Source: Rhodanobacteraceae bacterium
GTDB taxonomy: Bacteria; Pseudomonadota; Gammaproteobacteria; Xanthomonadales; Rhodanobacteraceae
Assembly (NCBI GenBank): GCA_025928585.1
Contig: JAICJG010000014.1
Location: forward strand, 1 to 37,954
Length of the DNA: 37,954 nucleotides
Direction of reading: 5' to 3'
This document shows, in pieces, positions 12,692-31,948 of the stretch (positions are counted from its first letter, which is position 1; the number at the start of each line of letters is the position of its first letter). Below the pieces are notes generated by a model that ran no database searches, was not told the origin of the DNA, and saw only the letters and a program-made list of their open reading frames with translations. The position numbers and the translations under genes are program-made.

Positions 12692-12754
12692 CTGGTCCCT
12701 GGTCCCTGGTTCCGAGTCCCGAGTCCCGGTCCCGGTCCAGGGTCCCGGGTCCCC
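12692..12754. repeat. Degenerate heptamer array (GGGACTC/GGGACCC/GGGACCA units on the minus strand)
   Basis: Minus strand reads GGGACCC GGGACCC TGGACC GGGACC GGGACTC GGGACTC GGAACCA GGGACCA GGGACCA; abuts the stop codon of the M13 gene. Confidence 0.9.
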
Positions 12755-26495: not shown

Positions 26496-29246
<2,751 letters not shown>

Positions 29247-30040: not shown

Positions 30041-31069
30041 GTGACGATCGAACCGGACGGCTTCCCCGGGACCCTGGCCAAGGGCGACCTCGCGCCGGTG
30101 TACCTGCTGGGCGGCGAGGAACCGCTGCAATTGCAGGAAGCCGGTGACGCGTTGCGGGCGCGCGCCCGCGCACTCGGCTTCACCGAACGCGACGTGCTGG
30201 ACGTCGAGCCGAACTTCGACTGGGACCGGCTGGCGCGGAGTGGCGCGAGCCTGTCGCTGTTCGCCTCCAGGCGCCTGATCGAATTGCGCCTCCCGACCGG
30301 CAAGCCCGATCGCGACGGAGCCGCCGCGATCACCGAGTGGTGCAAGTCGCCGGCACCCGACACCGTATTGCTGATCAGCGCGATGCAGTGGAGCAAGAAG
30401 CACGAAGGCGCCTGGGTGAAGGCGGTCGAGCGTGCCGGCCGCTACGTGCGATTGCAGGCACCGCGCGTCGATCAATTGCCGGCCTGGATCAGGGCGCGCA
30501 TGCGCGCCCACGGCTTTGCGCCTTCCGCCGACGCGGTCGCGTTGTTGGCCGCGCGTGCGGAGGGCAACCTGCTCGCGATCGCCCAGGAGATCGACAAGCT
30601 CGCGGGGTTGCGGGGCCCGGGCCCGGTGGAGGCGCAGGAGCTGGAGGCGCTCGGCGAAGAGAATGCCGTGTACGACGTGTTCCGCCTCACCGACGCTGCG
30701 TTCGGCGGCGACGCGCTGCGCGCGCTGAAGATCGTTGCGGGGCTGCGTGCGGAAGGCGAGGAGCTGATCCCGATGATGGGTTGGGTGCTGAACCAGCTCG
30801 ACCTCGCGCTGCGGCTCGCATCTGCGTCCGATTTTGCGAGCGCGGTGCGCAACGAGTACAACTTCTGGCCCGCGCGCCAGAAGCTGTTTGCCGGTGCGTT
30901 GAAGCGCGCCGGTCGCGGCGACGCGCACTGGCGGCGCTGTCTTGCCTGGTGCGCGAGGATCGACCGGATGGCGAAGGGCCGCGAGGCGGGCGACCCGTGG
31001 CGCGAGATGGAACGGCTCATGGTCGCGATCGCGCAGCCGCGCGCGGCCGACGTGTTGCTGGCGGCATGA
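30041..31069 (+). CDS. holA: DNA polymerase III subunit delta
   Basis: LAPVYLLGGEEPLQLQEAGDALRARA ... GNLLAIAQEIDKLAGL; GTG start; conserved neighbourhood. Confidence 0.93.
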   Translation: MTIEPDGFPGTLAKGDLAPVYLLGGEEPLQLQEAGDALRARARALGFTERDVLDVEPNFDWDRLARSGASLSLFASRRLIELRLPTGKPDRDGAAAITEWCKSPAPDTVLLISAMQWSKKHEGAWVKAVERAGRYVRLQAPRVDQLPAWIRARMRAHGFAPSADAVALLAARAEGNLLAIAQEIDKLAGLRGPGPVEAQELEALGEENAVYDVFRLTDAAFGGDALRALKIVAGLRAEGEELIPMMGWVLNQLDLALRLASASDFASAVRNEYNFWPARQKLFAGALKRAGRGDAHWRRCLAWCARIDRMAKGREAGDPWREMERLMVAIAQPRAADVLLAA

Positions 31070-31203
31070 AGAAGAGCAGGATCCGTCCGCGAATGAACGC
31101 AAAGTGTGTGAATGAAGTAGCGCAGGATCGGTCCGCGAATGAACGCAAAGGGCGTGAATGAAGAAGCGCAGGATGGGTCCGGAAATGAACAGGAAGAATG
31201 CGA
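31066..31203. repeat. Tandem repeat, 3 x 46 bp, overlapping the holA stop codon
   Basis: ATGAAGAAGAGCAGGATCCGTCCGCGAATGAACGCAAAGTGTGTGA / ATGAAGTAGCGCAGGATCGGTCCGCGAATGAACGCAAAGGGCGTGA / ATGAAGAAGCGCAGGATGGGTCCGGAAATGAACAGGAAGAATGCGA. Confidence 0.95.
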
Positions 31204-31273
31204 ATAATCCAGCACGGTTCGACCTCGTCTGCGCTTGTCCGCCTTCCTTTGCGGATTGCGATTGCCTCTCATC

Positions 31274-31948
31274 ATGAGCGCGATGCGGCCTTTCGCGGTC
31301 TTCGGCGGCACCTTCGACCCCGTCCACAACGGACATTTGCGTGCCGCGTGGGAAGCCTCGGAAACGCTGGGCGCCGACGTGCACCTGGTTCCAGCCAAGG
31401 TACCGCCGCATCGCCCGCAGCCGGTTGCCGATGCCGCGCGGCGCGTGGCGATGCTGCGCGCCGCGCTGGCAGGGCAGGACCGCCTGCGGCTCGACCTGCG
31501 CGAACTGGAGCGCGAGGGTCCGTCGTACACGTTCGATACGCTGACCTCGCTGCGCGCGGAAATCGGCGATGCACGCCCGCTGGTGCTGGTGGTCGGCGCC
31601 GACGCCTTCGCCGGACTTGCGACCTGGCATCGCTGGCGTGAGTTGTTCGGATTGGCGCATATGTGCGTGTTGACCCGGCCCGCGCAGATCCCGGCGCTGC
31701 CCGATGCGCTCGCGGCGGAGGTCGCCGAGCGGCGGATCGGCGATCCGGCGGCCCTGCGCGAAGCAGCGGCGGGCCGTGTCCTCGACACGGTCGTGACCTC
31801 CCTCGGGATCTCCGCGACCCGGATCCGGGAGGAGCTGGCGCACGGCGGCGAGCCGCGCTGGCTGGTCCCGGATGCCCTGCTGGCCGATCGGTCGCTGCTT
31901 GCGCCGTACCGGGAAAGCCGGCAGCAGCGAGCAGGGAGCAGGGAATAG
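31274..31948 (+). CDS. nadD: Nicotinate-nucleotide adenylyltransferase
   Basis: MSAMRPFAVFGGTFDPVHNGHLRAAWEASETLG ... TSLGISATRIREEL. Confidence 0.95.
   Translation: MSAMRPFAVFGGTFDPVHNGHLRAAWEASETLGADVHLVPAKVPPHRPQPVADAARRVAMLRAALAGQDRLRLDLRELEREGPSYTFDTLTSLRAEIGDARPLVLVVGADAFAGLATWHRWRELFGLAHMCVLTRPAQIPALPDALAAEVAERRIGDPAALREAAAGRVLDTVVTSLGISATRIREELAHGGEPRWLVPDALLADRSLLAPYRESRQQRAGSRE

Follow-up and report, generated by a model that had tools for sequence, protein, structure and literature searches.

The 46-bp array between holA and nadD

Between holA and nadD, on the forward strand of the window (the whole 37,954-nucleotide stretch of DNA that was analysed), a tandem array of 46-bp units is followed by a loop region and a decayed right arm. 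The features are listed below, where G009 denotes a sister species.

30041–31069, forward strand: holA, DNA polymerase III delta subunit, the upstream gene (open reading frame; relatives in 60 of 61 genomes)
31066–31111, forward strand: left-arm unit 1 (TRF, in-register comparison)
31112–31157, forward strand: left-arm unit 2, paired with the right arm by the covariance model (model match 31116–31271)
31158–31203, forward strand: left-arm unit 3, at 76% identity to unit 1; like the G009 element, it passes into the loop through its terminal GCGAATAATCCA
31204–31227, forward strand: loop region, limits approximate
31228–31262, forward strand: decayed right arm TCTGCGCTTGTCCGCCTTCCTTTGCGGATTGCGAT, limits approximate (model alignment E 1.7e-10; lines up with the intact G009 right arm)
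31274–31948, forward strand: nadD, the downstream gene, its start most likely at ATG 31274

TRF placed the array at 31066–31190 with a period of 46, 2.7 copies, 88% matches and a score of 194, which makes it the top-scoring tandem array in the window. Compared in register, the identity to unit 1 is 100% for 31066–31111, 89% for 31112–31157 and 76% for 31158–31203. At period 46 the best self-match reaches 76 of 92 positions; the highest value in 60 Markov-shuffled versions of the whole window, scanned over all periods from 10 to 119, was 52. The holA gene ends at 31069 with the TGA at 31067–31069, and unit 1 begins at A31066, the A of ATGA. These results uphold an earlier sequence-only reading of this DNA, which had described three tandem 46-bp units at 31066–31203, the first two alike and the third diverged, beginning at A31066 so as to hold the holA stop codon and arising by stepwise duplication. 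The copy number of three units comes from one assembled genome per species. Two short heptamer arrays are also found in the window (TRF), GGTCCCG × 8.9 at 12694–12753 and CGGGACT × 4.4 at 28362–28392.

The ATG at 31066 overlaps the holA stop as ATGA and opens a frame of 31 codons; the 31-residue peptide previously proposed for it is correctly translated and is the tail of the open reading frame 30337–31161. That this ATG starts a translated small peptide is nevertheless extremely improbable. The orthologous G009 element (GCGTGAGG) has neither the ATG nor a matching frame, arm units differ among copies and among relatives, the frame is not kept, and a 46-bp unit does not divide into whole codons. 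On the same grounds, the view that the array is not a peptide was sound.

The units are single arms of a dispersed hairpin element

Searched with the array DNA, six further species of the genus gave partial matches, nearly all of them half of a near-palindrome. Each 46-bp unit corresponds to a single arm of an inverted repeat and runs between successive A-rich ends, a relationship that the sequence-only reading had overlooked. The parent element is a dispersed palindrome, roughly AAAAGCA..GTCCGCAAATGAACGCAAATGAACGCAAATAA followed by a loop and the mirror arm, with a length of 100–144 bp (median 116). The A-rich outer end AAAAGCA is followed by GTCCGC AAATGAACGC AAATGAACGC AAATAA, a short variable loop and then the reverse complement, each arm of ~40–46 bp being made mainly of 10-bp units of GCRAATGAAC type mirrored about the loop. 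The A-rich motifs at the arm ends are only partly kept (outer in 36 and inner in 18 of 48 left arms).

We built a covariance model from 12 other loci, with the window copy not included. The model matches the window at 31116–31271, with E-values of 1.2e-8 in the genome search and 1.7e-10 on the window alone with filters off, and in the alignment the partner of unit 2 is the decayed right arm near 31228–31262, which is weak when taken alone. Over both strands of the window's own genome there are 26 model matches in at least 11 distinct places (at least 10 besides the window), and in G009 there are 80 matches in about 40 places. Copy number in this uncultured genus ranges from 0 to about 40 per genome, with no element in 5 of 16 genomes, and weaker model matches occur outside the genus in four other genera of the same family. 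The sequence-only reading had proposed searching the 46-mer against this genome and its relatives; related arms are indeed dispersed in the genus, but the 46-bp tandem is in none of the other scanned elements, where the sole recurring period is 10 bp.

Rfam returned no covariance-model match up to E = 1 for positions 30900–31450, phages gave no element match, and element sequence strings are absent from open-access papers (subscription papers and figures lay outside the scope). The family is apparently unnamed, a provisional statement.

The holA–nadD junction in relatives

A clean, intact single hairpin lies at holA–nadD in G009 and G007, a variant with 9-bp units in G004 and G013, and a degraded copy in G012. 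Seven relatives (G001, G002, G003, G005, G006, G008 and G014) have no insert here, because the conserved GGTFDP motif of nadD follows the end of the holA match after a gap of just 26 bp. Filled and empty sites are thus both found, but the relatives are too diverged for the borders of the insert or a target duplication to be placed, and the holA tree is too weakly resolved for gains and losses to be counted. In common with G009, the window has the arm–loop string GCGAATAATCCA and the nadD start context, and its copy therefore descends from a hairpin at holA–nadD.

As RNA, the G009 copy at this junction folds at −55 kcal/mol (z = −6.9), whereas the array region of the window is no more stable than its shuffles (z = +0.2); the window copy is therefore a relic, presumably without function. 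The structural or binding role earlier favoured for the array is not supported, with z = +0.20 against shuffles and only one arm pair or nothing at this place in relatives. A protein-binding array was rejected, as the 46-bp tandem has no counterpart in relatives or in other copies. The single copy with a conserved peptide that the sequence-only reading had set against itself is present in one respect: relatives hold single-arm copies, but the peptide is not conserved.

We are highly confident that the array is a triplication of the left arm within one decayed copy of a dispersed, non-coding hairpin repeat at holA–nadD. The array is a local accident in that copy, and the dispersed hairpin is the real unit. 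We propose that a palindromic repeat entered the holA–nadD operon junction in part of the genus, and that the transcript of a live copy would fold as a long hairpin between the two cistrons, just after the stop codon of the first. In the window, the right arm has decayed through point changes and the left arm has been duplicated in tandem to three copies. Slippage during replication or unequal recombination is the probable cause, acting between the A-rich stretches AAGAGC/AAGAAGCGC, which are alike at the two arm ends. Intact copies probably form intercistronic hairpins in the transcript, with a possible effect on mRNA ends.

Different sequences also occupy this junction. In G011 (L021) and in other genera (L034, L036, L037), unrelated inverted repeats of CCCTCTCCC / GGGAGAGGG type lie at holA–nadD, and the junction seems to accept inserts repeatedly.

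Elements lie mostly behind stop codons and between co-directional genes

Placement was assessed for 54 elements from four genomes, with genes called by a simple codon-usage caller. The flanking gene pairs are co-directional in 46 of 53 cases, convergent in four and divergent in three. Against a background of 400 kb of G014, in which 226 of 327 gene pairs are co-directional and account for 57% of intergenic bases, the co-directional preference has p = 0.0025 (gene pairs) or 2e-6 (intergenic bases), for copies that were ranked by model score and are not independent where they have a junction in common. Of 50 elements, 41 lie at a distance of −40 to +20 bp from the upstream stop, and 26 contain or overlap it; upstream proteins gain element-coded tails, SANERK, SVRE and TVRK among them. 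Part of this stop adjacency is expected, because such junctions offer little other room.

Elements occur in either orientation, and at 13 junctions at least two of the fetched copies coincide, almost always in different species. At truA–trpF, several element-free relatives have an overlapping ATGA stop/start, and in G009 and G000 the element lies between the gene body and the ATGA. At scpA–scpB, 10-bp-unit elements are found in G000, G007, G009 and G014, 9-bp-unit elements in G011 and G013, and a short remnant in G004. By itself the array is a relic of little consequence; what matters is that long hairpins are placed inside core-gene operons (holA–nadD, scpA–scpB, truA–trpF), recur at the same junctions across species, and often provide the upstream stop codon.

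The 9-bp-unit subfamily (GCGAAGAAC GCAAAGAGC GCGAAG) fills junctions that bear 10-bp-unit elements in sister species, namely holA–nadD, scpA–scpB and truA–trpF in G004, G011 and G013 (L019, L017, L212, L221, L231, L233). A further variant (GACACGGATAAAAGCGGATA..., GACGCGGATCAACGCGGATCA...) separates two metH-like reading frames in each of two species (L136:3251–3359 and L107:3249–3354), and its two arms are altered alike.

As 10 leaves a remainder of 1 when divided by 3, three units can place TGA/TAA in all three frames. A three-frame stop cassette is nevertheless no more than speculative: the transcribed-side arm is not significantly better than the other arm (p = 0.18), and the 9-bp-unit subfamily lacks most such stops.

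Function or mobility of the elements

The preference for co-directional junctions and for the site behind a stop codon, together with the junctions occupied in several species, would suit a selected functional intercistronic RNA (an mRNA stabiliser, RNase site or attenuator) of which the window variant still works. Pairing likewise exceeds shuffles on all five measures. However, the excess of covariation is small, in an alignment that contains each element on both strands and whose cell counts are thus not independent. No covariation is seen at the variable base of each unit (pair 25–195); the arms are therefore not tightly held as RNA pairs. The fold is lost in the window copy, the copies in this genome score 37–69 bits against 80–100 for the fetched G009 copies, and the genus genomes without any element further weigh against this explanation, which we regard as unlikely.

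Bidirectional intrinsic terminators are less likely still. In intact copies a strong stem is indeed bordered by A-runs and T-runs (AAAAGCA ... TGCTTTT), but the T-run is several bases off the GC-rich stem, convergent gene pairs (4 of 53) are below expectation, and the elements lie inside core-gene operons.

We give roughly even chances to the elements being non-autonomous REP/MITE-like mobile DNA, served by a transposase favouring stop codons or short operon junctions, with the window copy a dead insertion. Consistent with mobility are the dispersal of copies in either orientation at such variable number per genome, the filled and empty sites at holA–nadD, scpA–scpB and truA–trpF, and the ATGA on either side of the insert (31066–31069 and 31274–31277), which flanks it at holA–nadD only. 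Against it, many junctions are common to several species and so give no sign of recent movement, and no Y1_Tnp (RAYT) gene adjoins an element. Thirteen PF01797 (Y1_Tnp) loci were found in 7 of 16 genomes, around which the element model R1 gave one marginal match (16 bits, >1 kb away), and no REP-type transposase lies within about 1.5 kb of the elements. A RAYT-mobilised REP was accordingly rejected.

Similar units in distant bacteria

Units of RAACGCRAAT / RAACRCRGAT form recur in long intergenic palindromes in several genera of the family, in another family of the order (f10), in a family of another class (f49), in Chromatiaceae, in Skermanella and possibly in Nostocales plasmids. Pairs of adjacent 10-bp units are present in f49 (GTTCATCTGTGTTCATCTGTGG) and in many genomes of f10, where they are often opposed and about 90–130 bp apart; a reversed control pattern gave zero matches. 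Gene neighbourhoods in these two families are similar, mostly between co-directional genes. The plasmid matches include eight places in Candidatus Thiodictyon syntrophicum and a near-perfect palindrome in Skermanella, while those in Nostocales have one arm in common and gave no clear full palindrome.

It is conceivable, though we lean against it, that these 10-bp-unit palindromes form one undescribed, widespread class of hairpins with stop codons as its settling places and some mechanism that moves or homogenises it. The likeness may reflect either shared descent or convergence. Should the class prove genuine, whatever moves it and any influence it has on operon mRNA could be tested directly.

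Two arrangements in these families differ from the rest. In f10, opposed arms are exactly 389 bp apart rather than ~100 bp at G582:C23:17175–17583, G593:C1:2105742–2106150 (L261) and G615:C17:1631211–1631619, which would be either a longer element that is conserved or an insertion of gene size between the arms. In f49, L177:1390–1560 (G356) has at least five 10-bp units (GTTCATCTGYGTTCATCTGTG...) in a run on one side, an expansion of the 10-bp unit and not of the whole arm.

Comparison with known repeat families

As dispersed palindromes near gene 3′ ends, the elements resemble REP, BIME and REPIN sequences, including the GTAG- and CGTC-tagged REPs (PMC3733652), and GTAG REPs too are reported to provide neighbouring ORFs with their stop codon (PMC3733652). 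Unlike REPs of 20–40 bp, they span 100–144 bp with arms of 10-bp units, and they show no constant tag (within 30 bp of the ends, GTAG in 3, CGTC in 10 and GACG in 11 of 54). In contrast to the REPIN system, they have no neighbouring RAYT gene.

The elements are inverted-repeat, dispersed, non-coding and within the about 50–400 bp of MITEs. They are like the MITE-type sequences ERIC, RU/RUP and Correia/NEMIS (PMC2229807) in being non-coding inverted repeats of about 100–150 bp, dispersed and possibly transcribed as hairpins, but unlike them in being nearly all arm. Petrillo et al. 2006 (PMC1590033) describe the Ype, Efa and Bor stem-loop families from Yersinia, Enterococcus and Bordetella, which by that account are likewise enriched at coding-sequence 3′ ends; arms of 10-bp units apparently set the present elements apart from them. 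Like stem-loop families, the elements combine a stable hairpin, many copies and enrichment at gene 3′ ends, with the window copy itself lacking the fold. Our verdict is that the dispersed hairpins are a new family of a known kind, the bacterial intergenic palindromic repeats.
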